From assembly GCA_949752735.1 (NCBI GenBank), contig OX457053.1:2695084-2759083 (forward strand): 64,000 nt of DNA. The letters run 5' to 3'. Of the stretch, positions 17,796 to 63,440 are shown piece by piece. This DNA comes from Lumbricus terrestris (taxonomy: Eukaryota > Annelida > Clitellata > Crassiclitellata > Lumbricidae). The translations under genes were made by a program, and so were the position numbers. The notes beneath the pieces were generated by a model that was not told the DNA's origin, searched no databases, and was given only the letters and a program-made list of their open reading frames with translations. Numbering within the stretch: the first letter of the stretch is position 1; each line of letters opens with the position of its first letter.

Positions 17796-19578
17796 ATGGA
17801 AGACACAAACGGAATCGACTGTGATGGACTGGAACTGTCGAACCAGCGTGAAAACGAGACCAACTATTTCAGGTTGGTCCAGCTGACGATGGTCGAAGGT
17901 ACGAACGTGGTTAGGAAGACTATCCTCAACCGCCTTCAACAACGCAGGACACTGCACACAATCCTCGCAGATCGGAGGTCAGAGTTCGTCCAGAGGGGCT
18001 CTGGATTCAACCTTCAACAGCTGGACGTCCTCTATCCCGTGAACGGAAATGCCCACCTTGCAAAGTTTGATATGACTCTTTGGTTCGCACTGGCTCGAAA
18101 GCTCCGTGTACTCCCAAGGAATTACCTAGATCCGCGTATCGAAGGAAATGATAACTCCAGTACCAGTACACCTCTAATCGGTACCCAGGTGGAATGGTGC
18201 CAGGACCTGGCAACAATCCACGCAGTTCGGAACAACCTCTTCCACCTCGTGAAACCGGAAATGGACACGGAGATCTTCGAGGACCAGTGGACTCGTCTCA
18301 CGGATGCTCTGTACCGACTGGACCCCGACCTTGACCGGAGCGTCATAGAGAGATACCGAACAGCTGAACTGAACCCAAAGGCAGTCATTGAACTCCGCGC
18401 GATGATCATGGAACAGTGTTTTCAGGAACGGTGCGTGGATCTCGCTGACGAAGTACGCAAAAGGAATCGCATCATCCAACTGATTCTGCTCGTGGTTGCT
18501 CTGGTGCTACTTGTGATTCTGGTCGGCGTTCTTGTTTTCGTTCTTCTCTTCAAACAGCAGCGCACCTGCGATCAAAATCTACAGCACCGTGTCGTTGGTG
18601 AATAATTATAACATGGGGTCCACTGTCCAGCCATTACCGCGCAGGACATTCGCGCGCCGCCATTTGCGCGCCGTCGTTTGCGCGCATAAACAAAATCACG
18701 TATGAAACATATGACAGAAAATCTTTCATTTTATTCTTAAAGTAATGAGCGTTAGGAATAAATGTTTATGTTCCACGTAATGAGCGTTAGGAATAATATC
18801 TTTATTTGCTTGTATTTATTTATATGTATCCTAATATGCGAAATAAAAAACAACGAACAATATCTTTATTTAGGTTTATGTGCGAAGACAAACACGAATA
18901 CACATAAAAATCGCGTTTATCGTACCCATCACACAGGAGTTTGCTGTTTGACCATACGAAGACGGCAGATATAATAGTAGATATAATAGTACAAGTCTAC
19001 GCTGCGCACGCGCGCAAATGACGGCGCGCAAATGACGGGCGTTTTTTGCTGCGCGCAAACGACGGGATTGCAAACGTCCTGCGCGGTAATGACACGGGTG
19101 CCTTATAATATAGTTTTGATTTCTCTTTGTCTCTTCCTCTCTCGTGCAAATCAGCGTTTTCTTCTTCCTACTCCTGATCTTCTTCTTCCTCCTCCTCCTC
19201 CTCCTTCTCCTCCTCCTCCAACTATTCCTCCTTCTACTCCTCCTCATTATCGTCATCATCGTCATCATCATCAATGTCTTCGTCATCCTCCTCCTCCTCC
19301 TCCTCATCCTCCTCACCATCATCATCATGATCATGGTCATCATGATCATGATCATCATGATCATAATGATGATGATGATCATGATCATCATGATCATGAT
19401 CATCATGATCATCATCGTCGTCGTCGTCGTCGTCATCATCATCATCATCATCATCATCGTCATCATCATCATCATCATCATCATCATCGTCATCGTCATC
19501 ATCATCATCATCATCATAATCATAAACATAATCATCATAATCATCATAATCATCATATCATCATCGTCATCTTCATCG

Positions 19579-19643
<65 letters not shown>

Positions 19644-22600
19644 GTCATCGTCATCGTCATCGTCACCATCATCACAGACACTACTGCCGCCGCCGTCACC
19701 ACCACGAATGAGGGACATACATGCTGATCATTACGACGACAGCTTCTATAACTTCCAAGACCACCACCTCAACCAAGATATTCTTTTATCACCTATAATA
19801 CACTCCAGTGTTGAGCGAAGATCGCCTCAAACACTACTCGCTCTCTGACATCTCATTTTGGTCATCAATGCATCGGATTTGTACTTGTCGTCTGTTCATG
19901 ATGTTTCAGGTGACCTCGCAGATCTGAGCTACCTGACTCGCAGTGGCTGGGGAGCTGTGCCACCCAGGGGACATATAGACCCACTTCATCTGCCGGCGTC
20001 TTACGTTGTCTACACGCACACGGCTGGCACCTTGCAGTGCAGCGTGCCAGAGGAATGCTGCATGCAAGTCAGAAATACCCAGTATCTGCATATGAATGAA
20101 CGAAGCGATAGTAAGTACTGCACCTTCAATCAGAGACGTTCACAGTCGGACGGGGGACTGACGGACGCATGGAGAGACATAATACTAGATGGACAGAAGG
20201 ACGGACCTACGAGAGGATGGACAGAGGAAAGAGGGACGGATACTGTAACGGACTGGCCTTTCGTCTGGGAGTCACGTGTCTGCCTACTCTCCAACTCACT
20301 TTCACTTACCAGGGCCTTTGGAGAAATAGCCTCAGTGTCCTCCCAGCGAAAGCCACCGCACTGTTGTGGGAGCTTGCCCCTATGGCCTAATGAATCAGCG
20401 GTTTCACAGTTAATGGGCCTCATTCGGCTCAACAGGGATTCTGTTTCCACATAGCTCTCTGTCGTCGGGTATTTCCTTCTTTCTCTCACTTCTACCAGGA
20501 CCGAGTCAGGACATAACTCCGCGGCACCCTTTAGGGAAGCAACAGCACCAATACTCTGGTACTCATTAGGATTCGACTCCCACACAACAGGTTTGCCAGA
20601 AGAAATACCTACAGTGAGCTCTTCTACCCTATTCCCTAATTGTCTTATCTGTCTGGACTGCTGCTCTAATACTCTCTCAGTATTATCCTCCAATTTCTCA
20701 TATCGCTTCTGATTAAGCTCAAGAATATTCAGGAGTCTTTCTACTACACTAGGTGGCGCTACTGAGCACTCGACCTCTTCACTCTCAGAAGTTTCCAGTG
20801 AGGGATTTCTATCCTCTTCCCCTTGGGTCAATTCCCTCACCTCCTCGGATTCAGGTGCAGACATATTTGTGTATTTAAATTACCAGACTGTTTCGTTATG
20901 CAATTTAATTATCAAAACAACAGCCTTAACTAAAATACAAATTATCACAATTGAACACAATGGTTTCTCCGACTAGGGAGAACACTCTCCTGAATTAAGA
21001 TTAATCTGCTCCGATTTAACCTTAAGTCATTCACAATTGGCACCTTGCCAATAATTAAATCAGTGTTCAATTTCTACTCTATTGCGAACATCTAATAATC
21101 ACAATATATAGAATTTATCGCATTCCAATATTTATTTCTATCAGATTCGATCCAGTATTAGCGTAGTTAATACTTTCCTGTCTTAACGGCTTCGGATCCT
21201 CCCTTGGGATAATTTTGCCCAATGTATTTCTGCCAAATTCCTCTTCCAGAAATATCTTTCGCACCAGACATCCACTGCACTTTTCTCGGACGAAAAGGCG
21301 ACACAAATTGTAGCGGCGAGTTGCCCAGTTATCGGAGAATAAGTTCTTCCCAGAAATTCGATCCACCGGTGTGAAATCCTCGACAATTCTACACCAGACC
21401 TCAACACGGTCGCCACCAATGGCAGACAGGTCCTTCTTCATCGAAATTTAGGCCGAAATTACTAAACTTTCGCCATTTTTCTGTCAGCAAGTCCTTACTC
21501 TACCGATTCCCGGCCGCAACTAAAGAGAAGCGGCTAAATTAGCGCCAATCGAATTGCTGTAGCCAATCACAGGCCACCTACAGGACGCCAAACAAGCACG
21601 GAGCAATTTAGAGCCAATCACAAGCCTTCACGTGCCGAGTCTGCTGAACACAAAAAGCTATTAATAGCGCGTTGCAGCTTGCAGTGCTAAGATTAGCTAC
21701 CACGATCCAACTATAGCAAAAGATGCAGCGCGTATGTAAGTAAGTAGGAATTATTAGCGATTTCCAAAATCGCTACAATACAAGGGCAGTAAGATCCGAC
21801 CGTAGACTAAGCACGCTCACAAGGAGATGTACAAAGAGCCAGACAGACAGGAGGACGAATGGATGGTCAGATATAGAGACAGAATGACAGATAGACATTT
21901 TGACGGAAGGAAGTATACGATGGGTCATATTTTTGGAAAAGTCAGATATGTAATTTATTATTATAATTGTATTCATCATTTTCATCATGAACCATGGGCT
22001 CATCGCCCGCAGATATCCGACGCCATTTTCACTAAGTTCCTCCATCTTTGTTTGTCCAGAGCGATGTGGCTCACTTAGCTCCTCAAACTCGACGCACACC
22101 TCAACCATGGTGAGGGGTGACAACAGTTATAAATGGAAATGCCTTCTAAGGCCATGCTATAAGTGGTGAATGTCTTGGGTGATGTAACACCTAGGGCGCT
22201 ACGCGAGGTGGACTGCTCAGCAGAAGCCCTGAAACTGCTGGCTAACGTGGGCGAAATTTCCCCCTTATTGTAGGCCTATTGATGGTCCATCCTCATTCCT
22301 GAGGGTCGGAGACCAGAGACAACGACAGCAGCTTCCTCCATTCCTCTCTGTTCTGCGCCCGTCTGGCACAGTCCACAATTGATAGTCCTGTCCAGTCACA
22401 GACATCGTCCATCCAGCGCCTCCTTATCCTTATTGTATTACGTAACTTTATTTGAAAAGGTCAAATCGGTGCCTGGCGCGCTAGGCAACAGTGGTGGCGC
22501 TATTATGTCTCGGCAGGCTATTTGACGTAGGCTACTGTCTAGTTTGCTCTACACCTGCCTTATGGCTGGCCCAAAACTTTGGAATTTTTAATATAATCTT

Positions 22601-24687
22601 TTCATGTAATTTCTTCGACCTGCTGAATAACTCATAATAATTAATATTATGACCACGATGCTACCTGCTGAAATTGTATGACTGACACCGCCACTGATAG
22701 GCAGGGCCTGAAGTTGAAGACGTTTCCTGACACAGATTGGTTCTGCTTTCCCTGACTATTTTAGTATTATGTTTATTGTAATATTCACGCTATCGCATAC
22801 GCTCTCTCATTGATGAGTAATTCATTTATTTAGCCATTCAGTTGCTTTAAGAGAATTCGTTAATAATTATTACAGCTAACTTTCCAGCCGCTGCACAAAG
22901 TAGATCTTTCTCCGCGACCTAATATATTCCGAAAACTTCTGAAGTGTTCTGATAATTTGTTATGATAATTCTTTTCAGAGTTCCCCGACATTGGTTATCA
23001 TTATCTCATCGACAACAAAGGAATCGTCTACGAGGGCAGAGATATCCACCAAGTGCCAAGCGCAGTCTATAAGTCAGAAACTTTTCTTTAACTCATTTTC
23101 CAAATCCCTGAATCTATGACTTCTCTGACTGTCCATTCAAAACTAAAAGTCCTCCTGCATGTCAAGACATCTTACTATGATCCGTGCAATCTGCCACCTC
23201 CGTTAACATATACGCCACACACGGTAACAGCTGCCTCTGCCTCTCTCAATTCTCTATCTATCGCTTTCTTCGTCTGTTTTTGTGTGTGGTGCTTTCCATT
23301 GAATCCCTTTTACTGCCTTACCACTTATAATTCTTTTAGTAACTAATTACTTTTTGTACTGTTCTGTGAACGTGTTCAGTTGGAATTACAACATAACAAG
23401 CGTCGCATTCCTCGGAAACTTCGTGTATCAAAATCCAACATCGTATGCGCTGGCGACCTTCGATATTCTCCTAGCATACCTAAGATACAGCAATTACATC
23501 ATCCAGGACTACACGATCTATGGAATGTGCGAGTGCGTAGACACCGCAAGTCCTGGAAGAAATCTCTACGAGGAAATCAACAGATCCATCCTGAGTCACA
23601 TCTCTGGACACGTTGTAAGTGCTCCATGCATCTTCAATCCTGCAGACGAAGGCGGTGAACACGTTTTGCCTGCTTGTTTCAATCCAGAGATATAAAAAAA
23701 GGGAATACAAATAAACGGAAAATCGTCGTTTTTCGAAACAGTAAAAAAAAACGGAAAAAGGAAATCGAAATAATTTGACTTTGTTACATCTTAAAATGCA
23801 TTTTAATTTCAAAAACCTTGTTTGTGCAATTTTTTGATCTTAATCGACAAATAACACAATTTTATTTGTAGCCCAACAATCATGACAAGTGCCATTAATC
23901 TAAGTTATTTTGTTCTTAAAACTGATTTAATAAGAAATTGAGAAAAACTAACGGTATTGGAGTCTTTTCAAATTTAAATTGTGAACATTCCAAATAAATT
24001 CATGCTTATGGACATAACCCAATTAAAATCTAATCAGATATAAGGGCTATGGATGTATCTCTTAAATGATGTTGCTAAGCACTTAAATGATGACATCAGT
24101 TAGCTGAATCCTTGATAGTAGGCCGCAAGCGGAGAGGATATCAGAAAAAAATAAAATTAAGGAAATTAATAGCAGACAGTAAATAAATAAATAAAGTTAC
24201 ATAAAAATAAAAAAAAACCGGAATAAAACGACGGGGAAAAACGAAGAAAAACGACGGTTCTTTTAAGAGAATAAAAAACGAAAAACATTTTAAACAACTA
24301 TGATTTACTTAAAATGTAGTGTAGTGACTGTAGTCTGATCCTTGAACGAGTTTATCAGTCCCTGGGTCAAGATTTTAGAACGCCCCCTCCTTCACAATCA
24401 TGCCCTTTCACCTCGGTCGCTTATTTCGTTCTAAACCTAGGACTTGCCTTTCAAATTCAATTCTCAACATACAGGACTTGCCTCTCTCAAACTTCGTTCT
24501 CAACGTAAGACTTGCTTCTTTCAATTTTCGTTCTCAGCCTAGGACTTGCCTCTTTCAATTTTCGTTCTCAACATAGGACTTGCCGCTTTGTATGTTATTA
24601 TGCCTTACGTACCTGCTAATTTTTCAGAGACATCGACCAGACAACTTCTGCTTCTTCAATGATTCGGTGACCGCTGACTCTTCTTGA
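17796..24687 (+). CDS. Receptor A: type II membrane protein, DZIP3-type HEPN - TM - PGRP
   Basis: Exons are 17796-18597, 19910-20110, 22979-23072, 23380-23614 and 24628-24687; GT-AG junctions and phases (1,1,2,0) agree, giving 463 residues. Residues about 22-178 resemble the DZIP3/hRUL138-type HEPN domain (NYFRLVQLTMVEGTNVVRK, FDMTLWFALARKLRVLP, AVRNNLFH). The HEPN RNase motif RNxxxH is R145-N146...H150. After basic RKRNR, one hydrophobic helix spans about 227-252; no signal peptide is present, so the N-terminus should be cytosolic. Residues 268-444 form a PGRP domain: SGWGAVPP, VVYTHTAG, the Cys pair in LQCSVPEEC, DIGYHYLIDNKGIVYEGR, SVAFLGNF and DTASPGRNLYEEI. The amidase residues are altered (GHR...C-P-G became GMC...S-P-G), so recognition rather than hydrolysis is expected. 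N-glycosylation sequons (NIT, NRS, NDS) lie in the extracellular part. The tail ends DSS plus TGA. Confidence 0.85.
18632..19091. mobile_element. GC-ended MITE in intron 1 of receptor A
   Basis: The inverted ends are CATTACCGCGCAGGAC (18632-18647) and GTCCTGCGCGGTAATG (19076-19091), followed inward by more inverted GCGCGC/TTTGCGCG sequence. It is about 460 bp and non-coding. Intron 1 of B continues straight from the same flank (GTGAATAATTATAA) without it. Confidence 0.7.
19181..19672. repeat. ATC/CTC trinucleotide microsatellite, intron 1 of A
   Basis: About 490 bases of CTC-, then ATC/CAT-type trinucleotides with interspersed ATG and CGT units. It produces long spurious Asp, Met, His, Ile or Ser runs in several frames. 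The same intron of B holds a purer array at 38281-38561. Confidence 0.95.
20244..21777 (-). mobile_element. Retrotransposon-like insertion with TG...CA ends, intron 2 of A
   Basis: The insert runs from TGTAACG to CGCTACA and is flanked by ATAC at 20240-20243 and 21778-21781. Gene B has the uninterrupted site (GTATACAGGGGCAG at about 39119-39132). On the minus strand a frame starting at 20864 encodes an acidic protein with a Gln-rich coiled-coil (LEQQSRQIRQLGNRVEEL), gag-like in character. A further minus frame (21441-21115) and TGGCGACCGTG near 21410, reminiscent of Gypsy primer-site surroundings, support an LTR-element origin. I do not see two long direct repeats, so the class is unresolved. 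Confidence 0.5.
22280..22440 (-). mobile_element. LINE C-terminal fragment, intron 2 of A
   Basis: The minus strand reads RRWMDDVCDWTG, then ARRAQNREEWRKLL and VSDPQE before a stop, the usual end of many LINE polymerases. The flanks join directly in B near 39575 (CCAATTGTATTACGTAAC), so this insertion came after the A/B duplication or was lost from B. Confidence 0.6.
24425..24592 (+). repeat. Degenerate tandem repeat in intron 4 of A
   Basis: Units of about 36-42 bases contain GGACTTGCC, TTTCAA and TTCGTTCTCAAC. The same array is in intron 4 of B at about 41785-42025. Confidence 0.75.
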
Positions 24688-29343: not shown

Positions 29344-29355
29344 TTCTCTATTAGG

Positions 29356-29424: not shown

Positions 29425-32400
29425 TTATTCTTCTTAATTATCCTAACCCTATAATATCACTCTTTATATTATATATAATTTGTTATTATAGATATAATTT
29501 CTGAGATTGAGATTATCTTATGTTTTTGTAGGCTACAGCCTACAAGGCTAATGAGATTAGATAATTAGTCAACATTATATCTATGGACGACATCAATGAC
29601 AATGAAGGGGGCTTCTTAGACTATATAACACGTGTGAGACTGTGAGTTGTAGTTTCTTCTTAGATTATAACACCTGTGAAATGTAGGGATGTATTGGTTC
29701 CTGTGCAACTGTGTAAGCTTATATAATTATAGTCCTACTTCCGTCTGTGGTTGCTTATTATGATAGTCAAGTATAATAGTCCAGTTGCAACAGAACTGGG
29801 TTGATGAACTTGATACCAGTACATAAAGAATTGCAATTATAATTAATATTTATTGCAATCTTGAAGGTCTCTCTTTTATCAGCACTGAAATAATAGAGTG
29901 ATTTTGTTAAGGTGACAAATTAAAAAGCTACAATATTATTATTAGACCTAATATTATTATCATTACCATTGTCGCTAACATCGTTATCGTTATAATAATT
30001 ATATTATCAAGTCCCGATATAACCTAGGGTCCTGGACAGGTTTGTAGGCCTAATTAATTCTATTCTGCTTTAACAGAACAAAGGACGAAACTAACAACCC
30101 ACCTGAAAATCACAACTCCCAAGTTGAGGATGACCATGAGACACGCAACGAAGTGGAGGTTGCTGTTTATGGTGACGGGCGTTGTTTTTTGCGATGCCTA
30201 GCAGCAGTGCTATATCCAAGTTTAGCATGTGCAGAAAGGTTTAAATCAGGCCAAATCCGTTCAGTCGATATCGCTGCTAAGGAAACAGTTGTCGCTGATT
30301 TACTTAGAAAGGAAATTTGTAACGTTTTGAGAGAACACAGAGATGTGTTGCATGAAATGGCAGATAGTCTGCCGTTTTTGCTGGACAATACTGTTGATCG
30401 CAGATTTCTTTCGATTGACGATCGAATCTCGGCAATGTCACACCCTACCACATATGTTGGCAATGTTGAGATACTTGTTGCAGCATATCTTCTACGTACA
30501 CAGATACACCTTTTCTGTTCCTCTCCAGATGGGTTGAAGCTGGTCGCCAAATTGCCGCAGACATTATACACTCTCAGCAAACCTGTACAACTGATGTACA
30601 GTGAAGACAGTAAAATCCAGCCCGGTCATTTCAGTTTGCTGATCGCTGAAAAAGAACTACATCGTGGAGAAAATGAATGCGATTTCAAGCAGTCATTGAA
30701 AGATGTATTATCCGATCCTAGCAGACCAACTGGCCAAGACGGATGTGAAGCTTATTTCAAAGACGTTCTGAACGACCATGCAGGTGTAAGCAGTTTAGCA
30801 TCAATCCCTCAACAAGAATCATTTCAGGATGATGCAGTCGATATAACTTTGACAGAATCACGAACTTTATGCCGCAGTTTGTCTGAGCATAACTTGCACA
30901 AGAACACTCAGTTGTACGAAGAAGCCAACATTTCGACGTTATTATCATCTGGGAAGACAGAACTCACAGAAGTACCAGAGTGTGACCCAGCAGCATGCGT
31001 TAGCTTCTCTGCAATGCCATATGACTATGGTATGGATAAAAAAGAACTCAGAGAAAAATCTTTGGAAATTAGACCGGTGCAAACCACCAACACTTTACGT
31101 CATTTTCGACGGAACGGCCGTCACTACGTAAGCTGTACAGCTTGCTGTAAGTTTCAAGATTTGGTGAAAAGACTTTCAGTAAAATGTCAGGTGCCACCTA
31201 TTGCTATGGAGTGTGGAGTAATTTTTCGAAAAGAAACGGTACGGAAGCACTTGCAGCAGCCTTATCATTCTCAAAGCTTGAAGGCTCATCGTATGACAAC
31301 CTTATCTCCGGTAGACGCTGTGAAAATGTCTGATATGGGAAGATCAATCTCAAAGGTCAATGAGAAACTGGCAGAGAAAGTCGGCAGTCTTTTCGTACAC
31401 GCATATGGAGATGCAAAGAAATTAACTCTGAGTGCATTTTCATTTCCTGCAAGGCATCTGCTTTCTCATGGAATTGCGGTAAAATGACAACTGAGCAAGA
31501 TTGGAACTTACAGTACTTGACGCCAGCATCTCACAAAGAATTTTTGCAATGCATTGTACAAAGTCACCAAGAAATTCTTGCGAAAAAGCTGACCAATGAT
31601 GTATTGGCATTATCCATACGATGCGATGGAACAGTAGACAGAACGCAAATTGATAAAATTTACGTTATGGCGAAAGTGGTCAGAGGGGTTGGTTCAGAGG
31701 AACAATACTTCTTAGGTGCCAGCGAACCTCGTTGCCGAGGCGCTAAGGGGATTCTCGAAGCTCTGGAAGAAGCATGCATTAACACAGTTGGAGAATCTGC
31801 TGCAATTAAAGCATATACTAAGACACGCGTCCTCTTTGGTGACGGATGGAGCGTCTATCAATACAGGTGAGAGGTCTGGCTTATGGACTCTATTTCGAGC
31901 CAAAATGAGGGATCATCAATCAACATCTGTCCCTTTGTTAACAATCTGGTGTGCAGTTCACCGTTCGAATTTGGCTTGGAAATCTACCAGCAACTCTGTC
32001 AGTGAGATTGGTCATATATTTCAGAATCTGGTAGCCCTGTCCACATATTTTCACACATCAGGTCTCAGATCAAGGGAACTTCGGGAAGTCGCAGATCTTA
32101 ACAACTCTCACCTCGTTGCGCTTCCTAAGCTTTTTGAGGTTAGGTGGTCTGAGTTTTCATACGCATTAGTAAATTCGGTTCTGGTATCATGGTTTTCGCT
32201 TGTTCTTTATATGCGGCAATCCAAAGATAAAGCTTCAAGTGGTTTTTTGGCATTTCTTCTAGATGAGGATAAACTCGTAGCCTACTCCTGTCATTTTTGG
32301 CTGATGTTCTCACTGTCTTCAGCAGATACCAGAAACTGCTGCAAGGAGATGGCATCACTATTCTCGACATTGAAAAGACAACTAAGTCGGTAAAAGCACG

Positions 32401-37379: not shown

Positions 37380-38344
37380 ATGGAAGACACAAACAGAATC
37401 GACTGTGAAGGACTGGAACTGTCGAACGAGCGCGAAAAAGCGACCAACTATTTCCGGTTGGTCCAGCTGACGATGATCGAAGGTACGAGCGTAGTAAGGA
37501 AGACTGTCCTCAACCGCCTACGACAACGCAGAACCCTGCACACAATCCTTGCAGAGCGGAGGTCAGAGTTCGCCCAGAGGGGCTCTGGATTTAACCGTCA
37601 ACAGCTGGACGTCCTCTATCCCGTGAATGGAAATGCCGACCTTGCTAAATTCGATATGACCCTTTGGTTCGCGCTGGCTCGAAAGCTCCGTGTACTTCCG
37701 AAGACTTACCTAGAAGATCTACGTATTGAAGGAAATGGTAACATCAGTGCCAGTGCACCTCTTCTCGGTACCCAGGTGGAATGGTGCCAGGACCTGGCAA
37801 CAATCCACGCAGTCCGAAACAACCTCTTTCACCTTGTGAAACCGGAAATGGATGTAGATATCTTCGAGGACCAGTGGACTCGTCTTACGGAGGCCTTATA
37901 TCGATTGGACCCTGGTCTTGATCCCATCGTCATCGAGAAGTACAGTACAGCCGAACTTAACCCAAAGGCAGTCATTGAACTCCGTGCGTTGATCATGGAA
38001 CAGTGCTTGCAGGAACGGTGTGAGGACCTCACAGACGAAGTACGCAAAAGGAACCGCGTCATCCAATTGATTCTCGTCGTGGTTGCTCTGGTGCTACTCG
38101 TGATTCTGGTCGGCGTTCTTGTTTTCGTTCTTCTCTTCAAACGCCCGCGCACTTGCGATGAAAGTCTTCAGCACCGTGTCGTTGGTGAATAATTATAATA
38201 ATTATAGTTTTGGTTAAAATAATAATTTTATACCTGTTTTGATTACTCTTTCTCTCTTTCGCCATCGTGCAAATCTGCGTCTTCCTCATCTTCATCATCA
38301 TCATGTCCATGATCGTCATCGTCGTCATCCTCCTCATCCACCTC

Positions 38345-38425
<81 letters not shown>

Positions 38426-38485
38426 ACATCATTATCATCGTCAGCGTCATCATCATCGTCGTCGTCGTCGTCGTCGTCGTCATCG

Positions 38486-38558
<73 letters not shown>

Positions 38559-41500
38559 TACAGACATCACCATCTTCACCACCACGAAAAGCGACGAATG
38601 AGGGACATACATGTTTGTGTTGATCATCACCAAGACAGCCGCTATAGCTTACAAGACCACCACCTCAACCAGGATATTCTTTTAACACCTATATGCTCCA
38701 GTGTTGAGCGAAGATCGCCTCGGACACCACTCGCTCTCTGGCAAATCAATGCATCGGATTTTGTACTTGTCGTCTGTTCATGTCGTTTCAGGTTACCTCG
38801 CAGATCTGAACTACCTGCCTCGCAGTGGTTGGGGAGCCGTGCCACGCAGGGGACATATAGACCCACTTCATCTGCCGGCGTCTTACGTTATCTACACGCA
38901 CACTGCGGACACCTTGCAGTGCAGCGCGATAGAAGAATGCTGCAAGCAAGTCAAAAATATCCAGTATCTGCATATGGATGAAAGAGCCGATAGCAAGTAC
39001 TTTACCTTCAATCAGAGACGTTCACAGTCGGACGGGGACTGAAGGACACATGGAGAGACAGAAAACTAGATGGACAGAAGGACGGACCTACAAGAGGATG
39101 GACAGAGGAAAGAGGGACGTATACAGGGGCAGTAAGATCCGACCGTACGCTAAGCACGCTCACGATAGACAGACAGACAGACAGACAGAAGGGAATGGGC
39201 AGATACAGAGACAGACAGACATTTGGACGGAAGAAAGTAGGCCTATACGACGGGTCATATTTTTGGATAAGTCAGATATGTAATTTACTACTATAATTGT
39301 ATTAATCATTATCATCATGAACCATGGGCTCATCGCCCGCAGATATCCGACACCGTTTTCTCTAAGTTCCTCCATCTTTGTTTGTCCAGAGCAATGTGGC
39401 TCACTTAGCCCCACAGCTCAACCATGGTGAGGGGTGACAACAGATATCTATGGAAATGCCTACTAAGTCCATGCCATAAGTGGTGAATGTCCTGGCTGAA
39501 GTACCACCAAGGGCGCTACGCGAGGTGGACAGGATCAGCAGGAGCTTTGAACCGGCTGGCTAACGTGGGAGTCATCTCCTCCAATTGTATTACGTAACTT
39601 TGTTTGACAAGGTCAAATCGGCGACTGGCATGATAGGCAGAAGTGACTGCGCTACCACAGGTCTCGGCAGGTTTTTTGACATAGGGGCCTATTCAAAACT
39701 GTGAAATTTTTAATATCTTCTTTTCGTGTAACTTCTTCGACCTGCTGAAAAACTCATAATAATATTATGACCTCGGTGCTGCCTGCTGAAATTGTATGGC
39801 TGACACCGCCGCGGATTTGCAGGGTCTGAAGCTGAGGATAGACTCCGAGAAGAAACCCATAAATTAGACATTCATGTCGCGCGCCTCTTCCGACTCCAGG
39901 CTGTACAAAAACAATACAAACTTGTGCCGTAATAATTCGATGTCGACATTCTTACAAGTTACAAAGCTCAGAAGTTACCACACGCTTCGACGACGCAACT
40001 CCAATTATATTGCAAAAAATAATTGGGAGTGAAGAACTTGCTCAAAGTCCATACACAGTTAGCTCCTCAGACGGGGATCGAACCTATACTGGCAGAGTAA
40101 CTGACCGACCGTTCTAGCCAATCGACCATCGTGCCTCCTTAATGCTCATCTGTTTAATCGAACAGTCCGAAGACAGTGACGGCGCTGAGGGGGGGGGGGC
40201 AGGGGACTTAGCCCCCCTAAAAATGGCCATCCATTTCTTTCCCATGTAAAAAAAATTTGGACGATTTGCCCCCTTTAGCCCCCCCCAAAACTGAAATCCT
40301 GGCGCCGCCACTGTCCGAAGAGCGACGGAACTGGGAGGACGTTTCCTGACGCAGATTGATGATGCTTTTGTTGACTCTTTAGTATTTTGTTTTATTGTGG
40401 TAATCATTCATTATTCAATATTCATGCTATCGCATATACGCTCTCTCATTGATGAATAATTCATTTATTTGGCCATTCAGTTGCTTTAAGAGAATTCGTT
40501 AATTACCGTCAACCTTCCAGTCCCTGCGCAAAGAGGATCTTTCTACGCGACCTTTTATATTCTGTAAACTTCTGAAGTGTTCTTATACCGTAATTTGTTA
40601 TGATAATTCTTTTCAGAGTTCCCTGACATTGCTTTTCATTATCTAATCGACAACAAAGGAATCGTCTACGAGGGCAGAGATATCCACCAAGTGCCAAACG
40701 TCGTCGATAAGTCAGGCATTTTTCTTCAACACCTTTTCAGTTGTACAACAACCATGTCGCTATCAATTGGGCCCTACCCATAGGAGCATTCTGTTTATAG
40801 GTAGAGTGAGTGGTGGATTTCCTCCCATACACTTTTCCACTTGGGTATGTACCGGTAGCATATATAATCAGCCTGTAAGACGAACGTTGATTCTGGATCG
40901 CGCAAAGTCGATGGGAAGGTCAGGTGGTGTGTGAGAGGACTTCTTTCCAAATCTCATATGCCGAGTTTAAGACAAGGAAGTCGCCGGCACTTCGCACGTG
41001 CAAATTATTCGTCGTTTCACTCTTCTGTCGTTCACTCGCCGTCGTCTGTACCACCCCTCCCCCAAATTCCTCAATCTATTACTTCTCTGACTGTCCATTC
41101 AAAACTAAAAGTCCTCCTGCATGTCAAGACATCTTACTATGATCCGTGCAATCTGCCACCTCTGTTAACATGTACGCCACACGCGGTAACAGCTGCCTCT
41201 GTCTTTGCCTCTCTCAATTCTCTATCTCTGCCTCTCTTCGTCTGCTTTTGAGTGTGGCTCCTTAGGTTGCCTCCCTTTATACCATGCTTTTTGTTGATTC
41301 CCTTTTACTGCCTTACCATTGTTTATTTCCTGTAGTAACTGATAACTTTAGCATTGTTCTGTGAACGTGTTCAGTTGGGATCACAATATTACGACCGTCG
41401 CATTCCTCGGAAACTTCATGTATCAACAACCAACATCGTATGCTCTGGCATCCTTCGAAATTCTCTTAGCATACTTAAGATACAGCAATTACATCATCGA

Positions 41501-42149
41501 GAACTACACGATCTATGGAATGTGTGAGTGCGAAGACACCGCAAGTCCTGGACGAATACTCTACGACGAAATCAACAGATCCGTCCTGAATCACATCTCT
41601 GGACACGTTGTAAGTACCCACTGCATCTCCAATCCTGACGACGAAGGTGGTGAACACGTTTTGCCTGCTTGTTTCAATCTAATGTAATGCAGTCTGGTCC
41701 TTGAACGAGTTTTATCAGTCCCAGGATCAAGATTTTAGAACATCTCTCCTTTAATTACCCGTTCACCTCATTCGCTTATTTCGTTCTCAACCTACGACTT
41801 GCCTTTCAGATTCAATTCTCAACGTATACACAGGACTTGCCTACTTGCCTCTTTCAATTTTTGTTCTCAACTTAGGATTTGCCTATTTAAAATTGCGTTT
41901 TTAGCATAAAGGATTAGCCTCTTGAAAATTTCGTCCCCAATCTAGGACTTGCCTCTTTCAAATTTCGTTCTCAACAAAGGGCAAGCGACTTTCAAATTTC
42001 GTTCTTGACCTAAGACTTGCCGATTTGTCAATCTACGGTAGAAATGTCTTTGTATCGTATTAAACCTTACTTGCCTGATAATTTTTCAGAGACATCGACC
42101 AGACAACTACTGCTTCTTCAATGATTCGGTGGCCGCCAACTCTTCTTGA
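37380..42149 (+). CDS. Receptor B: type II membrane protein, DZIP3-type HEPN - TM - PGRP
   Basis: Exons are 37380-38184, 38792-38992, 40617-40710, 41375-41609 and 42090-42149; phases match receptor A and give 464 residues. The HEPN part keeps AVRNNLFH and the helix VVVALVLLVILVGVLVFVLLF. The PGRP part has RSGWGAVPRRG, VIYTHTAD, LQCSAIEECC, DIAFHYLIDNKGIVYEGR, GNFMYQQPTSYALASF and DTASPGRILYDEI. The donor of exon 2 is GCAAGT instead of the GTAAGT found in A, C and D, so it must use a GC-AG intron or be mis-spliced. The tail ends NSS plus TGA, as in A. The promoter is not identified. It is the closest relative of A. Confidence 0.85.
38281..38561. repeat. ATC trinucleotide microsatellite, intron 1 of B
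   Basis: It is an almost uninterrupted (ATC)n with a CGT block near 38455-38482, at the same place as the array in A. Confidence 0.95.
39150..39240 (+). repeat. ACAG-rich simple sequence, intron 2 of B
   Basis: GACAGACAGACAGACAGAC and related units; the equivalent place in A (about 21830-21910) is a weaker version. Confidence 0.7.
39955..40141 (-). mobile_element. tRNA-derived SINE, second family, intron 2 of B
   Basis: On the minus strand the head starts about 40141 (AAGGAGGCACGATGGTCGAT), with B box GGTTCGATCCCC (40073-40084), then GTATGGACTTTGAGCAAGTTC. The A-box region is TGGTCGATTGGCT. It is absent from the matching place in A. Confidence 0.65.
40174..40313. mobile_element. Small hAT-type MITE, intron 2 of B
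   Basis: It runs from CAGTGACGGCGC to GGCGCCGCCACTG (140 bp) and is flanked by a perfect 8-bp duplication TCCGAAGA at 40166-40173 and 40314-40321. Confidence 0.85.
41785..42025 (+). repeat. Degenerate tandem repeat in intron 4 of B
   Basis: Units GGACTTGCC...TTTCAA...TTCGTTCTCAA are homologous to the array in A at 24425-24592. Confidence 0.7.
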
Positions 42150-51088: not shown

Positions 51089-54000
51089 ATGGAAGGGACG
51101 AACGGAGCGGACAACGACGAACTGGAACAGCCGAAAGAGCAAGAAAATGCTGCCAACTACTTCCGGTTGGTCCAGCTGACGATGGTCGAAGGTACGAGCG
51201 TAGTTAGGAAGACTGTCCTCAACCGCCTTCGACAACGCAGGACCCTGCACACAATCCTAGCCGATCGGAGGTCAGAGTTCTCCCAGAGGGGATCTGGATT
51301 CAACCGTCAACAGCTGGACGTCCTCTATCCCGTGAACGGAAATGCCGACCTTGCCACATTCGATATGACTCTTTGGTTCGCACTGGCTCGAAAGCTACGT
51401 GTACTTCCGAAGTCTTACCTAGAAGATCTACGTATCGAAGGAGCTGGCAACGCCAGTACCAGTACACCGCTTCTCGGTACCCAGGTGGAATGGTGCCAGG
51501 ACCTGGCAACAATCCACGCCGTCCGGAACAACCTTTTCCACCTCGTGAAACCGGAAATGGACACGGAGATCTTCGAGGACCAGTGGACTCGTCTGACGCA
51601 GGCCTTATACCGACTGGACCCCGGTCTTGACCGGAGCGTCATAGAGAGGAAACGTGAAGCTGAACTGAACCCAAGGGCAGTCGTTGAATTCCGAGCGATG
51701 ATCATGGAACAGTGCTTTCAGGAACGGTGTGAGGACCTCGCTGACGAAGTACGCAAGAGGAACCGTATCATCCAACTGATTCTGCTCGTGGTTGCTCTTG
51801 TGCTACTTGTGATCCTCGTCGGCGTTCTTGTTTTCACTCTTCTTTTCAAGCAGCCGCGCACCTGCGATAAGAGTTTGCTGTACCGTGTCATTGGTAAGTG
51901 CATGCCATGTCTTAGTGTTGCGTCATTAGTTAGAAACTTTATTCCGAGGGTTCGCTCTGTCGCCCATTAATGACAATGCTATCTTTACATCAATGTTGTT
52001 GTGCGTTGACATGTAACTGGGTGCGGTGTGTCACCCTGATTTGTCTCATTAAACGAAGGTTGAAGATTTCCGTCATCCAAAATATCATCTTATTCTTTCA
52101 TCGCCCTCAGCCACTCATCATCAACTCCAACCTTACGATCGTGCAACCTGATCATCCATGAACACTTCTGCAAGTGCAACCACTGCGGTAAAGACCGTTA
52201 TCCCCATCTTCATTTCGCTCATTGCATTCTGTTGATTGTCTTAACTATTTTTCTTATGACTAAGTAACCTACTGCTCTTGCCCAACATCGGCGTTTACTT
52301 TGGTTGGTCACTTCATTTGTAGTGACCTTCCTCCAGCAATGAGGGCTAAACTAATGATTCGTTTGTCTAGTCGGTCTCTCATTCTTTAGCGGTATCTCTC
52401 TTGCCCCTCTGAGTGTCCGTGCTGAGAGCGCATCTAAATGGTCATTGCACCCATGTTTTACGTTGGTCATCTGTCTTTATGTGGTCGTGTAGGTAACCTC
52501 GGAGGTCTTTACTTCCTGCCTCGTGGTGGTTGGGGAGCTGATCCACCTACGGAGCACACTGAAGCACTCCATCTACCTGTGCCTATCATCGTCTACACGC
52601 ATACGGCAGAGATCTCACAGTGCAGTGTGACAGAGGAATGTTGCAATCAAGTGAAGAACATCCAGTACCTACAAATGCACATAAGAAAGGACCGTAAGTG
52701 TATTTACAAGGTTTACACTGCAGATGATAGGCTAGACATATGAACGAATGCAGAGTTTGACGAAGGGACATAAAGACATACAGGTAGAGGGACAGATGGG
52801 AGAGAGATCGACGGAAATATTATATGCACAATAATATTGTAAGACACTCTATAATAGCTGTCTTGAAATGGACCGGTGCGTCAACTATTCAGGAATGGCT
52901 CTTCGAAAATGATCCGGCACATTATACCTATTCTTGAAAGACGTATTAAACTTATTGTGTACCCTACTACCCTGCCTCGCATTGCTTTATGATCTAAACG
53001 ATGTTCAAAGTACATTTATAGGCAAGAGAGCGTGACATTCCAGCATACAATGGACAGTCAAAGACGCCTTCTGAATGTCCATCGGTTGTGCATAGAAACT
53101 CTGATAGCAGCGAAGGTGTTGATTAAGAAAGTTTTTTTATAACAGTAATAATACTTATTATTAATTATAATGCAGTATAGTCATTAATGATATACAAGTG
53201 AGATAGTCATAGGCGTACGGGACATTTTGGCAGTGGGGGGCCAAAAAAATTTTGCCCGAAAAATCTGACCTTTTTTTAGTCGTCCGCCCAAAATTCCTAG
53301 TATTTTCCCGTCCGAAAAATCTGACGACCTTTTTTTAGTCATCCACCCAAAATTCTTAGGATTTTCACGTCCGAAAAATCTGACGACCTTTTTTTAGTCA
53401 TCCACCCAAAATTCTTAGGATTTTCACGTCCGAAAAATCTGCCGACTTTTTTAAACCCCTGCGTGCCCGAAAAAATCCCCCGTACCTATTTTTCCAGAAA
53501 AAAAATTATGAAATTTTTGGCCCGTCCATGCCTCTTTTGCCCGAAAAACACATTTGCCCGAAATTTGGGGGGGCTTTTGCCCCCTCTGGACCCCCGCCTC
53601 GTACGCCTATGAAGATAGTTAAACAATGCCTATAATGTCGCTGATTAGAGCTAGGCCTACCAATGCTGACAACAGGCAGGAAGTAACTGATAATAATGAC
53701 CAACCATTAATGATCATTGATAATTAATGGCAATTGAAAATTATCGATAGCTATAGTTAGCTTACCGTAGGCTACCTGTCATCGATGACAATTTATTAAA
53801 ATAATTTATGATAATTATCTGCATCGACAACTAAGTCTTAGACAATGAAGAAAACTATACAACGACAAGAGAATGAGGAAGAGGAACAGATGGTGGTCTG
53901 GTAGACCAGTGGCTTGGAATGGGCCCCCAAATGAGCTACAACTGCTTCCTGGGGTTCTTACCGAGGTTTTTTATTCAGGTCAAAACTGTTCGGTTTTGCC

Positions 54001-56290
54001 GTGCTAGAGTCGGGAGCGCCTCTGAATAGTCTCCTTGAAGATGCGCTATGGAAATTCTTGAACGAATGGATGAATAAATAAGAAATATGGAAAGCAGTAA
54101 GAACGACAAAAAGACAAAAATTAAGAATATTTATAAATATAATATCAAGGAGAGCAAAAAGAAGAACAGGAATAATAAGAGCAATGATAGCGACGACAAA
54201 ACTTGTTAAATCCGTTTACTTTTTAAGTGTTTGGATATGCCTTTGTGATGTGCAATTGCTTCACTGTTCCGTTGTGTTCTTTAGCATTCGAGGACATTGG
54301 TTACCATTATCTCATCGACAACAAGGGAATCATCTACGAAGGCAGAAACATCACAAAGATTGCATCAGCTGTCTACCAGTCAGTATCTTCACAATAATAC
54401 TCGTTTACAATAATTATTGTGGCCATGGTCGTCGAGAGAGGGGCGACTTTTAGGAGCCCCGGCTACGAAGTTATATACCTTACTTAACCTTAAATCGCAA
54501 TGAATCACCAAGTCTTGCTTTCCATCACCTTGCATTACCCAACCATACCTGTACCAAACTTGCCTTACATTACCATTGCATTTCTGTTAACGACAAAGTA
54601 TCTCACCTCTGTTCTGCTCAGTTGGAATCGCAACATAACAAGCGTCGCCTTCATCGGGAACTTCATGTACCAAACACCAACAGTTGAGGCCCTGGCGACC
54701 TTCGACCTTCTCATCGCATACTTAAGATACAACAATTACGTCATCAAGAACTACACGATCTATGGAATGTGTGAGTGTAGGAACACGGACAGTCCTGGTC
54801 GGATACTCTATGACGAAATCAACAGATCCAAACTGGATCACATCTCCGGACACGTTGTAAGTAACTCTTCAAATCCTGGTGAAATTTTAAAAGTCGATGA
54901 CATCTGGGCCCGTATGCACATGAGGGCATAACTCTTATATCTGGCTTAAATATGGCCTATTCGGGAAAACTGGGTTATTTCCGTATGCATGGCTTGAGAT
55001 TAGCGACGTAAACTAGGTATAACGTTATCCCAACTCAGAGGTAGGAGTTAGCCGGCTATTCCCATTGTGAACAATAGACAGCCGACTTTGGCTGGACAGC
55101 GTGAACAATAGGCAGCCGTCGATATTTCCCTGTGGCCCGTCTGGGGGTCTAAATCTGCTTACCCCACGCTGGCAACGACCGCAAATAAATATATTTAACG
55201 CATGCGCTCTCAGCTAAAACCTATTGAATTGGGGGAAGAGCAAGCGTCATGCATCGTCGGGCGCAAGGAATGTGTAGATTAGTTATTCTCTTCGCTATTT
55301 TGTCTCGTGCATACGGATAAATTCCAATGGCTACGTCGGGAGTTGTTAAGTCGCGTTTAGGCACTATACGTAGATTACCTTATGCCTTGTCCTGTGCATA
55401 CCGGCCCTGAGGTTTATGAACTCTTCAGTCAATAAGAACTTAAGTCAATGAGATTTTAAGTAAATGGGATTTAAAGTTGGGATACTTTCAAATACTTCTA
55501 CAACATCTTCTGGCTTAAATGTCTTGTGCCGTATCGATAAACTGTTTGCCTGATATTATTTCTTTGCAGAGACATCGATCAGAGGGTTATTGCTCATTCA
55601 ACAACTCAGTGGCTGAAACTCGGGAAAAAAGAGAACTTCTGGTAAGCTGGTTATTCTCCTATTTCCTAATTGATCCTAATCACAGTTCTCTGCTTCCTTT
55701 GCACCATCATCTAGCAACTGCTTTTTCTCCTCTGCCTTATCTTACACACACCCCTCTTTCATCTAGCGCTCTCCTTCGTGAATGGCAGAATGCGTGGGAG
55801 GCGATAATATACCGCTCCTAGACCTTTGAACGAGCAATGCACGAGCACAAGGTTCTCCATTTTCGAACGTCAAACCGCTGAAACAAAGCACCAATTGAAA
55901 ATGAGAGTATTTTGCAAGTTTAATCGTGGTTTATTCAGGGTCCGTGTGGAAATGCACATCATGGGTAATTCGCCGTTTTTCACGTTATCAAAGATTGAAA
56001 TGTTGTCCAAACAGTGAGGCTTAATATGTTCTGTTGCTTTCGTGTTTGAGCTGTATCCAAAATAATGGATCATAAATCAATATAATAGTAGGCCTACTGT
56101 TATTATCGGTAATGTTTTTGAGCAAATAATGACTCCGCGGATCTTTAAACGATCATGACTGCCTGTATTTTATTTAATGTGTGATTTAAATGTTGGCCAT
56201 AAAGTTCACTTTTTGTTCGCTTTTGAACTTCGCGGATCATTTCCTCATAACCAAAATGACTTTTTTGTTGGATTTTGACAGGAACTCTAA
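51089..56290 (+). CDS. Receptor C: type II membrane protein, DZIP3-type HEPN - TM - PGRP
   Basis: Exons are 51089-51893, 52493-52693, 54285-54378, 54622-54856, 55570-55641 and 56282-56290, all GT-AG with consistent phases, giving 471 residues. The ATG follows an acceptor CAG at 51081-51083, so a 5' UTR intron is likely. The HEPN part keeps AVRNNLFH; the helix reads LLVVALVLLVILVGVLVFTLLF. The PGRP part is of the C/D type: FLPRGGWGADPP, IVYTHTAE, SQCSVTEECC, DIGYHYLIDNKGIIYEGR, SVAFIGNFMYQTPTVEAL and TDSPGRILYDEI. Unlike A and B, exon 5 has no TGA, reads on to a donor (CTG|GTAAGC) and joins a tiny exon supplying two codons and TAA. If that splice is not used, the frame reads to a stop at 55821. 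Confidence 0.8.
52285..52440 (+). mobile_element. Old LINE 3' remnant, intron 1 of C
   Basis: CCAACATCGG, GTCACTTCATTTGTAGTG, CTTCCTCCAGCAATGAGGGC and GCTGAGAGCGC match 63073-63205 in intron 1 of D at the same position before exon 2. In D the frame reads RALPVVSPFIWSALPPAVR, a LINE C-terminal motif. Confidence 0.6.
53208..53611. mobile_element. MITE with CATAGGCGTACGG ends and internal 56-bp repeats, intron 2 of C
   Basis: The inverted ends are CATAGGCGTACGG and CTCGTACGCCTATG. Inside, CCGAAAAATCTGACGACC, TTTTTTTAGTCATCCACCC and AATTCTTAGGATTTTCACG repeat about three times. Flanks contain AGATAGT on both sides. Confidence 0.7.
53905..54085 (+). mobile_element. LINE 3' tail fragment, intron 2 of C
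   Basis: CTTGGAATGGGCCCCC, CAAAACTGTTCGGTTTTGCC, AGAGTCGGGAGCGCCTCTGA and GCGCTATGGAAATT with an AATG/AATA-rich end match the 8318-8545 element. Confidence 0.55.
54906..55409. mobile_element. MITE with GGGCCCGTATGCACA ends, intron 4 of C
   Basis: The left end GGGCCCGTATGCACATGAGG and the right end TTGTCCTGTGCATACCGGCCCT are imperfect inverted repeats about 500 bp apart. The interior has GCATACGG/CCGTATGCAT motifs. It is non-coding. Confidence 0.6.
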
Positions 56291-59174: not shown

Positions 59175-59262
59175 ATAATAGTCGACAGTCGGGATATATC
59201 GATTAGGATTAGACGTCGATTTCGACTCTGATGTGTCTGCAAAACATCGCTAAACAAAACCA
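59175..59262 (+). promoter_or_regulatory. Candidate 5' UTR exon of receptor D
   Basis: AGTCGACAGTCGGG is followed by AACCAG|GTAAGGCTAAACTGG, the same arrangement as 48489-48588. D has a matching acceptor TTGCAG (61209-61214) before its ATG. The similarity is short; low confidence. Confidence 0.3.
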
Positions 59263-59679: not shown

Positions 59680-59716
59680 CCTTCCCCCCAAAGTTCGGAC
59701 CAAGTCTCCGCCTATG
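59680..59716. mobile_element. Right-end fragment of the CGGAGACTT MITE
   Basis: CCCCCCAAAGTTCGGACC and AAGTCTCCGCCTATG match the right end of the family; the left end is missing. Confidence 0.5.
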
Positions 59717-60240
59717 ATAATATGCCAAATAAATTTCTGTCGACGGCAAATGCCTTTGTTGTCATTATAAGCTGTAATTAAATTTTGGATCCCATAATTA
59801 TGGCTTGAAGTGCTAACGTTGCGCGGTTCGAATCCCGTACGACTCCTGGGATTAGCTCTTCCTTCATTTCTTACGTGACAACTAAAGTACACAGAGCATG
59901 CTTGAGCATCAAGACCGCGTTTACTCGCAAGCATCCGCAAACAACCATTTATAAAGCGCCATGACAAAAATCACCAGCGGAGCTCAAAACACAAATTAGT
60001 GATAGGCTACTGCTGGGTAATTATATAGCCCACGCAAGAAAGTGTCTTTCCAACCCGGAACCAACGTGTATAGGCCTGTCGAGACGCGCACCTGCACAGA
60101 TAACTGCAATGAACCGCGAGGTGTTGACGGGCATCACAATGCTATCAATTGTCTAGACGTTATGAGCACCTGCATTATATCGTTGAAGTCTAATGGACAA
60201 GTGGTTTGAGATACCGTTATCAAATTACTGCAGAGTGGAG

Positions 60241-60252
60241 GATATATAAAAA
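60241..60252 (+). promoter_or_regulatory. TATA-like element upstream of receptor D
   Basis: ATATATAAAAAC lies in the block shared with the upstream region of C. It is about 970 bases before the ATG, compatible with a 5' UTR intron, but the start site is unknown. Confidence 0.3.
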
Positions 60253-61220
60253 CACGCTAACAAGAGCATCGTCAATTGACTTCACTTATAATATTGTTAC
60301 CTCATCTTATTCAGTATTCTTTTCAGTTTCCTACTAGTATTTATTTCTTGCCACACCGTAGTCGAGTGAGTTGTGACCGACCGTCATGTACTGGATTGTA
60401 CATGACTATTTATAATGCGCCTCTCTCAGCAAAAAGCCTCTTAGAAGCGCTCTCAGTGGGATCGTCAAAGAGAGACAAGGCAGGATTTGAAGCGAGAGAG
60501 AAAGATGAGGAAAGACTACCAGAGAGAAATATATTGTGTTGTTTTTTGTCGGGCCGTCCCGAAACATCTAGCGTAACGTCCTTGGGCAATATGCTCGTGC
60601 ACAATTTCCTTGGCAAACCCCTGCGCGGGATTTTGGCTACCTCTTTTAGTTAACGACGACATTTTTTAAATGAATTAACTCAAAGATCAGCCACTGGCTG
60701 CACTCTGCCAGTGCCAGTCCCAAGTCTGGGTAAAGGAGGAGGTCGTCGCTAATGGTTTTTGTTGCCGCACAGCGAAGTTAAACTGCAACCACCACCATCA
60801 TTGAGCGTGTTGATATGAAGGAGAAAGAATTTTATAAGAAACAGGCAGTTATAGGCCTATAGAAATAGCGCTGATTGACGAGAAACTATTTGACATTTTA
60901 CAGAAAATTATTCACTAATCTCGAGAATTTATAAGACGCCTCTTCAAGATATCAAAGGCGCTATCACACTTCACTAATGAACGACTAAATACGATCACCC
61001 AGTCTTGTTTTTATCTGTGCCTATGATTAGTGGGGAAGTACTGATCAACATATCCGGCTTTGACGTAGCCTACACTTCAGCATACCTTACTTCGACACAC
61101 TTTAGCATGACCTACCTGACCTCAAAACACCTTCCCGTGAATCACATAACCTCAACATTATTATAGCTCACTTCTCTCACGTTACGCCATTCTGCATATC
61201 GACTTTGGTTGCAGGTTATT

Positions 61221-63440
61221 ATGGAAGAGACAAGTGGCGTCGATTTTGACCTAGTGGAGGTGTCTAGCGAACGAGATTCCGCAACAAACTATTTCCGGTT
61301 GGTCCAGCTGACGATGATCGAAGGTACGAACGTAGTTAGGAAGACTATTCTCAACCGGCTTCAACAGCGCAGGACACTGCACACAATCCTCGCAGATCGG
61401 AGGTCAGAATTCGTCCAGAGGGGATCTGGATTCAACCGACAACAGCTGGACGTCCTCTATCCCGTGAACGGAAATGCAGACCTTGCCAAGTTTGATATGA
61501 CTCTTTGGTTCGCACTGGCTCGAAGGCTACGCGTCCTTCCGAAGAATTACCTAGAAGATCCACGTATCGAAGGAAACGGTAACACCAGCATCAGCACACC
61601 TCTTATCGATACCCAGGTGGAATGGTACCAGGACCTGGCAACAATCCAAGCAGTCCGGAACAATCTTTTCCACCTCGTGAAACCGGAGATGGACACGGAC
61701 TTCTTCGAGGATGAGTGGACTAGTCTGACGGATGCCTTGTTTCGATTGGACCCCGACCTTGACCCAAGCGTCATAGAGAGGTACCGTACGGCTGAACTGA
61801 ACCCAAAGGCAGTCGTTGAATTCCGCGCGATGATCATGGAACAATGTTTTCAGGAACGGTGTGAGGGCCTTGCAGACAAAGTAAGCAAGAGGAACCGGAT
61901 CATCCAGCTGATTCTCGTCGTGGTTGCTCTGTTGCTACTTTTGATTCTGGTCGGCGTTCTTGTTTTCGTGCTTCTCTTCAAACAGCCACGCACTTGCGAT
62001 AAGAGTTTGCAGTTCCGTGTCGTTGGTAGGTGCATAATTATTATGTCTTGCTAATACTTCTGCGTTTTCACAGCTCAATATTTCTACAGCGTCTTCAAAG
62101 GCGAAGTCATGAGAACCAGCTTATTCACAGACGCTAACTCAAAATGAAATCGGTAGGCAGAGGGTAGAAAAACAGAAATTCAGGCTGACAGACAAACGGA
62201 CGACTGAATGATGTTTAGAGTTGAAATTAAATGGATGAGAGTGATGTGAGGAGAAGAGAAGGAATCAGGTTAGGATGTGTGTAAAAGAAACGCCTTCATT
62301 TTAAGTAAAAGGCTCGCGGAGAGATAGTAAGATACGAGGCTTGGGTGAGTTCGTACGGTGAATCAGGTATTTGTCTTTAAACTGAGTAGTGACGGGCAGT
62401 AGCGGCGCCAGGGTGGTGATCTAAGCCCCCTAAAAGGGCTATCCGGTTTTTTACATGCAAAAATGAAACATTTTCATGATTAGACCCCCTATAACTGAAA
62501 CATATAGGCTACATGTAGCCTACACGAGATGAATTCGACATTTCGACTAAATGACTAAAAAAAGAGGTCGTCAGAGATTTAGGCGAATGAAAATGGAAAA
62601 TTTCCTCCGCGAGGATTCAGCCCCCAAAACTGAAATCCTGGCGCCGCCACTGGTGGCGGGACAGCTATAGCTATAGCATGCCCATCGTCACCACCACACC
62701 ACGATCCTATTAGGCCTATAGGACATCCATGATCACTACTTCAACCACCACGGCAAGAGCGTCTGTCCGCATCTTCACCACTCTCAATGCGTTCTGCTGA
62801 TTGTCTTGATCCTGTTTGTTTGTTTGTTTGTTTGTAAGTGCACTTGTCATAGCGCCTCTTCAAGCACTCTACTCAGTGGCGCTCCCGACTGCAGAGCGGA
62901 CACTACGTCGGAGTTTCACGCCGAAGCGCTGAGCAATTGCGAGTGAAGGACTTGCCCAAGGTCCCTACGCGGCGACTTGAGGTGGATTCGAACCTCGAAC
63001 CTTCCGGCTTCAAGGCAACGACGCCACCACTACACCACCGCGCCCATGTTGCCAAGACTAGGACTGTTCTTGCCAAACATCGGGCGCTTCCTGTGGTTAG
63101 TCCCTTCATTTGGAGTGCCCTTCCTCCAGCAGTGAGGGCTGAAATAATGATTCAGCAGCATTTCTTTTGCCCATGTGATCTACCGTGCTGAGAGCGCCTC
63201 TGAACGGCTGGTCATCGATCTATAATTATGTCGTTTTAGGTCTCCTCGGAGGTCTGTACTTCCTGCCTCGCGGTGGCTGGGGAGCTGATCCACCCACTGC
63301 ACTCTCTGAGCCACTTCTCCTGCCGGTTCCGAACATCATCTACACGCACACGTCAGATATCTCACAGTGCAGCGTGACAGAAGAATGTTGCAATCAAGTC
63401 AAGAACATCCAGTACCTGCAAATGCATACAAGAACGAAAC
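61221..63440 (+). CDS. Receptor D (partial): type II membrane protein, HEPN - TM - first PGRP exon
   Basis: Exons seen are 61221-62025 and 63240-63440; the remaining PGRP exons lie beyond the window. The ATG at 61221 is chosen because it aligns with A-C and follows an acceptor at 61214. The HEPN part keeps AVRNNLFH; the conserved EWCQDL is EWYQDL here and IHAV is IQAV. The helix is VVVALLLLLILVGVLVFVLLF after SKRNR. The PGRP exon has FLPRGGWGADPP, IIYTHTSD and SQCSVTEECC, close to C. The exon 2 donor is GTAAGT. Confidence 0.8.
62397..62652. mobile_element. hAT-type MITE, intron 1 of D
   Basis: It begins CAGTAGCGGCGCCAGG and ends CTGGCGCCGCCACTG. The interior contains CCCCCTAAAAGGGCTATCC and AAAAAAAGAGGTCGTCAG. 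It is longer than the 140-bp copy in B. Confidence 0.7.
62814..63045 (-). mobile_element. tRNA-derived SINE, reverse copy, intron 1 of D
   Basis: It is the reverse complement of the 27508-27741 element: (TTTG)n, GCGCCTCTTCAAG, CTCAGTGGCGCTCCCG, the B box as GGATTCGAACC (62984-62994) and the head ending CCACTACACCACCGCGCC. Confidence 0.85.
63073..63205 (+). mobile_element. Old LINE 3' remnant, intron 1 of D
   Basis: The frame RALPVVSPFIWSALPPAVR matches LINE C-termini; the sequence matches 52285-52440 in C. Confidence 0.65.

Follow-up and report, generated by a model that had tools for sequence, protein, structure and literature searches.

Tandem earthworm genes encoding a HEPN_DZIP3 domain, a predicted transmembrane helix and a PGRP domain in one product

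Introduction

What could a peptidoglycan recognition protein (PGRP) control from the cell membrane if its cytosolic part were a HEPN domain? The question is raised by a stretch of 64,000 nucleotides (the window) from the earthworm Lumbricus terrestris (contig OX457053.1, positions 2,695,084 to 2,759,083 of the forward strand), which is part of chromosome 18 of the assembly wcLumTerr1.1 (PMC10799228). An initial annotation of the window had described four paralogous genes with a DZIP3-type HEPN region and a transmembrane helix in the first exon and a PGRP domain in the following exons. The computational analysis reported here leads us to propose, tentatively and at slightly less than an even chance, a non-catalytic PGRP receptor whose clustering would activate a cytosolic HEPN RNase.

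Gene structure and domain organization

A tblastn survey of the window and 100 kb on either side (264 kb in total, with 5,000 N in each flank) revealed nine tandem copies of the HEPN-helix-PGRP gene, all on the + strand. Their first exons start at window positions −21411, −7628, 17796, 37380, 51089, 61221, 71823, 81909 and 96480, and no tenth copy was detected elsewhere in the 264 kb at an E value of 0.001. The four copies annotated initially are all real, but they are part of a tandem array of nine, with three further copies on chromosome 15 (see below). In all nine, exon 1 encodes a HEPN_DZIP3 domain followed by a single predicted transmembrane helix, and one PGRP domain is split over exons 2–4.

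Exon 1 of copy 1 (17796..18597) contains the HEPN_DZIP3 domain at residues 51–195 (Pfam E 9e-13) and the helix, predicted from hydropathy, at residues 229–252, and it ends in phase 1. In the splice model it is joined to exon 2 (19910..20110), exon 3 (22979..23072) and exon 4 (23380..23614), which encode the first part, the YEGR-carrying middle and the last part of the PGRP domain (spliced Amidase_2 E 4e-9). Exon 5 (24628..24687) adds a short tail (RHRPDNFC...SS) and the stop codon, and the tail resembles that of the fused protein P0011 described below. Copy 2 has the same organization, with HEPN_DZIP3 (E 7e-11) and the predicted helix in exon 1 (37380..38184), the PGRP domain in exons 2–4 (38792..38992, 40617..40710 and 41375..41609) and the tail and stop in exon 5 (42090..42149). 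The corresponding exons of copy 3 are 51089..51893 (HEPN_DZIP3 E 3e-11, predicted helix), 52493..52693, 54285..54378 and 54622..54856, followed by a tail exon read by eye (55570..55641), the 3' end of which is uncertain as a donor-like gtaagc comes next. For copy 4, exon 1 (61221..62025; HEPN_DZIP3 E 2e-12, predicted helix) and PGRP exon 2 (63240..63440) lie in the window, while exons 3 and 4 (64491-64584 and 66431-66665) are beyond its end. The four in-window junctions between exons 1 and 2 (18597-19910, 38184-38792, 51893-52493 and 62025-63240) had been proposed in the initial annotation and are identical to the boundaries found here, all in phase 1.

The spliced frame is open across exons 1–4 in all nine copies, and the other two frames hold 10–21 stops. 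Donors are GT in 35 of 36 cases, the sole non-GT donor being the GC (GCAAGT) at position 38993 after exon 2 of copy 2, and all 27 acceptors are AG. Five boundaries (the exon 2 end in one copy, the exon 3 end in three and the exon 4 start in one) were placed three bases away from where the general rule would put them, so as to coincide with a splice site. A short fifth exon was located in seven of the nine copies (six by the survey and that of copy 3 by eye), and the fifth exon of copy B contains an early stop. None of the 36 pairwise ratios of nonsynonymous to synonymous substitution rates (dN/dS) was ≥ 1, with medians of 0.21 (0.14–0.34) for the HEPN part, 0.29 (0.07–0.61) for the helix part and 0.27 (0.10–0.67) for the PGRP part. 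The cluster copies are under purifying selection.

Intron 1, between the HEPN and PGRP exons, contains (TCA)n arrays at 19244-19674 (144 units, copy 1) and 38286-38558 (91 units, copy 2). Because of these long arrays, spurious open frames arise in intron 1 of both copies; the frames at 18990-19727 and 38313-38981, which overlap the arrays, were rejected as coding.

Fused relatives and age of the fusion

A profile search returned 15 proteins, of which 13 have HEPN alone and two (P0011 and P0013) combine HEPN with Amidase_2 in a single frame. P0011 is a protein of 447 residues from a contig of 2,014 bases (Amidase_2 41.2 bits), and P0013 is a protein of 452 residues with 9 members from 2 contigs, the longest of 1,836 bases (32.3 bits). 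In both, the HEPN domain, helix and PGRP domain run uninterrupted across the predicted junctions in the same order as in the cluster copies, in line with the original proposal that they belong to one product. They aligned lengthwise with the spliced products, gap-free at the HEPN-PGRP junction and with short gaps (a few residues) near the second one. The C-terminal tail of P0011 is of the same kind as that of the spliced products, and that of P0013 shows a loose likeness only. Neither had a match in NCBIfam, and a further search, using full-length rows, turned up no additional fused protein. Since the earthworm genes have introns at those positions, the two contigs are probably spliced transcripts of other worms.

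A midpoint-rooted tree built from 27 HEPN proteins separated the chromosome-18 type from the chromosome-15 type (100/100), and each of the two groups included rows from outside the L. terrestris genome. P0006, P0017 and P0018, which have Amidase_2 without HEPN, were excluded from the tree, the dN/dS analysis and the motif and charge counts. The chromosome-18 group holds the nine fused models and the chromosome-15 group holds P0011 and P0013. Because fused proteins occur in both groups, the HEPN-PGRP fusion is most simply taken to be older than the split between them.

PGRP domain

Spliced copies 1–3 matched Amidase_2 with E values of 6e-10 to 1e-8 (35.8–40.1 bits against a cut-off of 26), whereas in copies 1 and 2 the frame that contains exon 2 had no Pfam match by itself; the PGRP domain is therefore visible only after splicing. 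When the copy 3 ectodomain was compared with PDB sequences, 29 were found at E ≤ 0.001 and the best was PGRP-LE (2cb3, E 1e-22). That exons 2–4 yield a PGRP domain, as first predicted, is borne out by both comparisons.

The first H of HHT, the H of GHRD and the C of DCPG, which we take to be the amidase zinc ligands, are replaced in all 11 ectodomains, as judged from an alignment with three PGRPs of L. terrestris, one of which reaches the last two ligands. The YEGR arginine is retained and the GW is lost in all 11. We read the PGRP domain as non-catalytic from the loss of the zinc ligands, and the retained arginine suggests that the ligand may be peptidoglycan of the diaminopimelic acid (DAP) type. 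The insect receptors PGRP-LC and PGRP-LE resemble the earthworm proteins in the loss of the amidase ligands, the retention of the YEGR arginine and a similar C.C..T.SPGR.LY.EI end, and PGRP-LE is the top PDB match noted above. They differ in having a RHIM-like module where the earthworm proteins have a HEPN predicted to be cytosolic, and the GW of EGRGW is lost in the latter.

HEPN domain

All four in-window exon-1 frames scored above the Pfam cut-off for HEPN_DZIP3 (E 7e-11 to 9e-13), as did spliced copies 1–3 (E 2e-12 to 3e-10). The initial annotation had staked its proposal on profile support for both domains, and HEPN_DZIP3 and Amidase_2 were each above cut-off. The RNxLxH motif (Rx4-6H with a polar residue after R) is kept in 27 of 27 HEPN proteins. 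A second acidic motif, Ex3[KR], which is present in many HEPN families without defining them, falls outside the invariant columns of the alignment. Exon 1 had no match among PDB sequences at E 1. AlphaFold2 prediction from nine close exon-1 proteins was poor, with a predicted local distance difference test score of 49; with a 19-row alignment the HEPN part became confident and the PGRP part was still poor. HEPN was the only Pfam match over cut-off in the putative cytosolic part, where cryptic RHIMs may escape Pfam, and no Pfam match to a kinase domain was found in the spliced proteins.

Membrane topology

The single transmembrane helix described initially is seen as one run of 24 hydrophobic residues in each of the four in-window exon-1 frames, and hydropathy indicated no hydrophobic N terminus in these frames, in agreement with the reported lack of a signal peptide. 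PGRP-LC is a single-pass protein with its N-terminal part in the cytosol. A type II topology, with PGRP outside and HEPN in the cytosol, is plausible because of the kind of domains and the long (220-residue) N-terminal domain without a signal peptide. Sequons are present C-terminal to the helix, on the PGRP side, in copies 1–3, and one or two further sequons occur in the N-terminal half. Among the 26 proteins reaching the helix (P0007 ends before it and was omitted), the net charge on the N side was higher in 7, equal in 3 and lower in 16, and the N-terminal flank was more positive in none of the nine cluster copies. The positive-inside rule thus lends no support to type II, and the 'basic stop' described in the initial annotation is not enough to fix the topology.

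Distribution in the genome

The genome searches were made exon by exon with only the best candidates scored, so that intron-split members could escape. The search with exon 1 found 12 places (18 candidates scored), namely the nine cluster copies and three on chromosome 15 with 36–39% identity, and the search with PF18738 (HEPN_DZIP3) matched the same 12 places, all above cut-off (13 candidates scored). Within the 3.7 kb examined per locus, a PGRP exon lies downstream of the HEPN-helix exon at all three chromosome-15 loci and the YEGR exon is also present at two. Exon 4 of these copies was not found; the single 1-kb stretch examined near one of them had exon 3 and no exon 4.

Other PGRP genes of L. 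terrestris (L001–L008) lie on chromosomes 5, 6 and 14, with 11 Amidase_2 exon matches in all. HHT or HHS is present in L001, L003, L006, L007 and L008, and GHRD..CPG in L003, L006 and L008.

Proposed mechanism and alternative explanations

In the mechanism we propose, one predicted helix connects a HEPN domain, predicted to be cytosolic, to a PGRP domain that has lost its amidase zinc ligands and is predicted to be extracellular. Peptidoglycan would cluster the receptors, and the HEPN domains thus brought together would form active RNases. Dimerization is the switch in Ire1 and RNase L, and by analogy it may be so here, with RNA cleavage as the output. No Imd-like adaptor would be needed at this step, the sensor doubling as the effector, and the many paralogues would broaden the range sensed. 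In its fullest form, which we regard as possible but somewhat more doubtful, this would be a peptidoglycan-gated transmembrane ribonuclease, a surface receptor of an animal that itself cuts cytosolic RNA once it has bound bacterial wall. Neither an adaptor nor a kinase nor NF-kB would be involved, and the logic would be that of Ire1, aimed at bacteria and multiplied by tandem duplication.

The main rival, a lesser but serious possibility, is that the HEPN domain is a non-enzymatic assembly platform to which clustering would bring a downstream partner, in the way that Imd is brought to PGRP-LC. In favor of a platform, recruitment is how receptors of the PGRP-LC type signal. The DZIP3-type HEPN is also found in signalling proteins with CARD, DEATH, NACHT, RING and ankyrin domains (PMC3710099), which likewise favors a platform. 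On the other hand, the catalytic-type motif is retained in 27 of 27 proteins, and no separate HEPN_DZIP3 partner that could act as a homotypic adaptor was found among the 12 genome matches, all of which are these receptors, with the limit that intron-split HEPN genes could be missed. Because the genome gave no other HEPN_DZIP3 match, a self-contained effector is mildly favored over a homotypic scaffold. The proteins could instead be decoys or serve tolerance, as PGRP-LF does, binding or sequestering peptidoglycan while HEPN merely holds or traffics the protein. This would suit an ectodomain without amidase ligands and GW and the high peptidoglycan exposure of soil-feeding worms. We consider it improbable, as the constraint on HEPN is at least equal to that on the ectodomain (median dN/dS 0.21 vs 0.27) and its motif is retained throughout (27/27). 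It is also conceivable that the HEPN-helix exon and the PGRP exons are separate genes alternating in tandem, and the 13 of 15 profile-search proteins with HEPN alone would agree with this, but they fit genomic DNA or retained introns too. Given the compatible splice phases and splice-site fit of the nine copies and the two domains in one frame in P0011 and P0013, we rejected this arrangement as extremely improbable.

Relation to known proteins

Membrane PGRPs are already known in a clitellate, Olavius algarvensis, where their cytoplasmic domains were described as lacking similarity to known sequences (PMC5117596). OalgPGRP1, OalgPGRP3 and OalgPGRP5 are, like the earthworm receptors, clitellate PGRPs with an N-terminal helix and a cytoplasmic domain, but the amidase residues are all present in PGRP1 and PGRP5 (4/5 in the incomplete PGRP3; PMC5117596), whereas the earthworm receptors have lost the zinc ligands. 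The DZIP3-type HEPN has been reported with TPR, Zn-ribbon, RING, ankyrin, CARD, NACHT, DEATH and LRR partners (PMC3710099). The 12 genome matches pass the Pfam cut-off of this DZIP3/hRUL138 family and retain Rx4H, and they differ from it in their partner, since PGRP is absent from the list as given there. PGRP and HEPN/DZIP3 are mentioned in PMC9334734 and PMC7773633 separately, not as one protein, in the text available to us. No PGRP-HEPN protein came up in searches of the open literature, outside subscription papers, on PGRP with HEPN or DZIP3, on DZIP3 HEPN with a transmembrane segment, or on annelid and mollusc PGRPs (including PMC3710099, PMC5117596 and PMC9835746). In these searches, we found no earlier description of a PGRP receptor with a HEPN cytosolic module.

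Ire1 and RNase L, with a KEN-type HEPN, offer an analogy in that sensor and HEPN nuclease are within one protein, and Ire1 likewise spans the membrane; they differ from the spliced earthworm proteins, which lack a kinase domain match. The module predicted to be cytosolic is recognizable here and conserved in two old gene clades, and it provides a specific prediction, open to test by motif change. Should the HEPN domain prove to be an active RNase, this would link peptidoglycan sensing directly to RNA cleavage at the membrane. Bacteria sensed outside would likely trigger RNA cutting or signalling within the cell.

Other features of the locus

Between copies 1 and 2, overlapping long frames occupy 30054-33094. 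The first matches OTU below the cut-off (E 9e-4), the three that follow match nothing in Pfam, and the run is perhaps a mobile element. In intron 2 of copy 4, at 63455-63864, a 204-base unit is present in two repeats at 99%.
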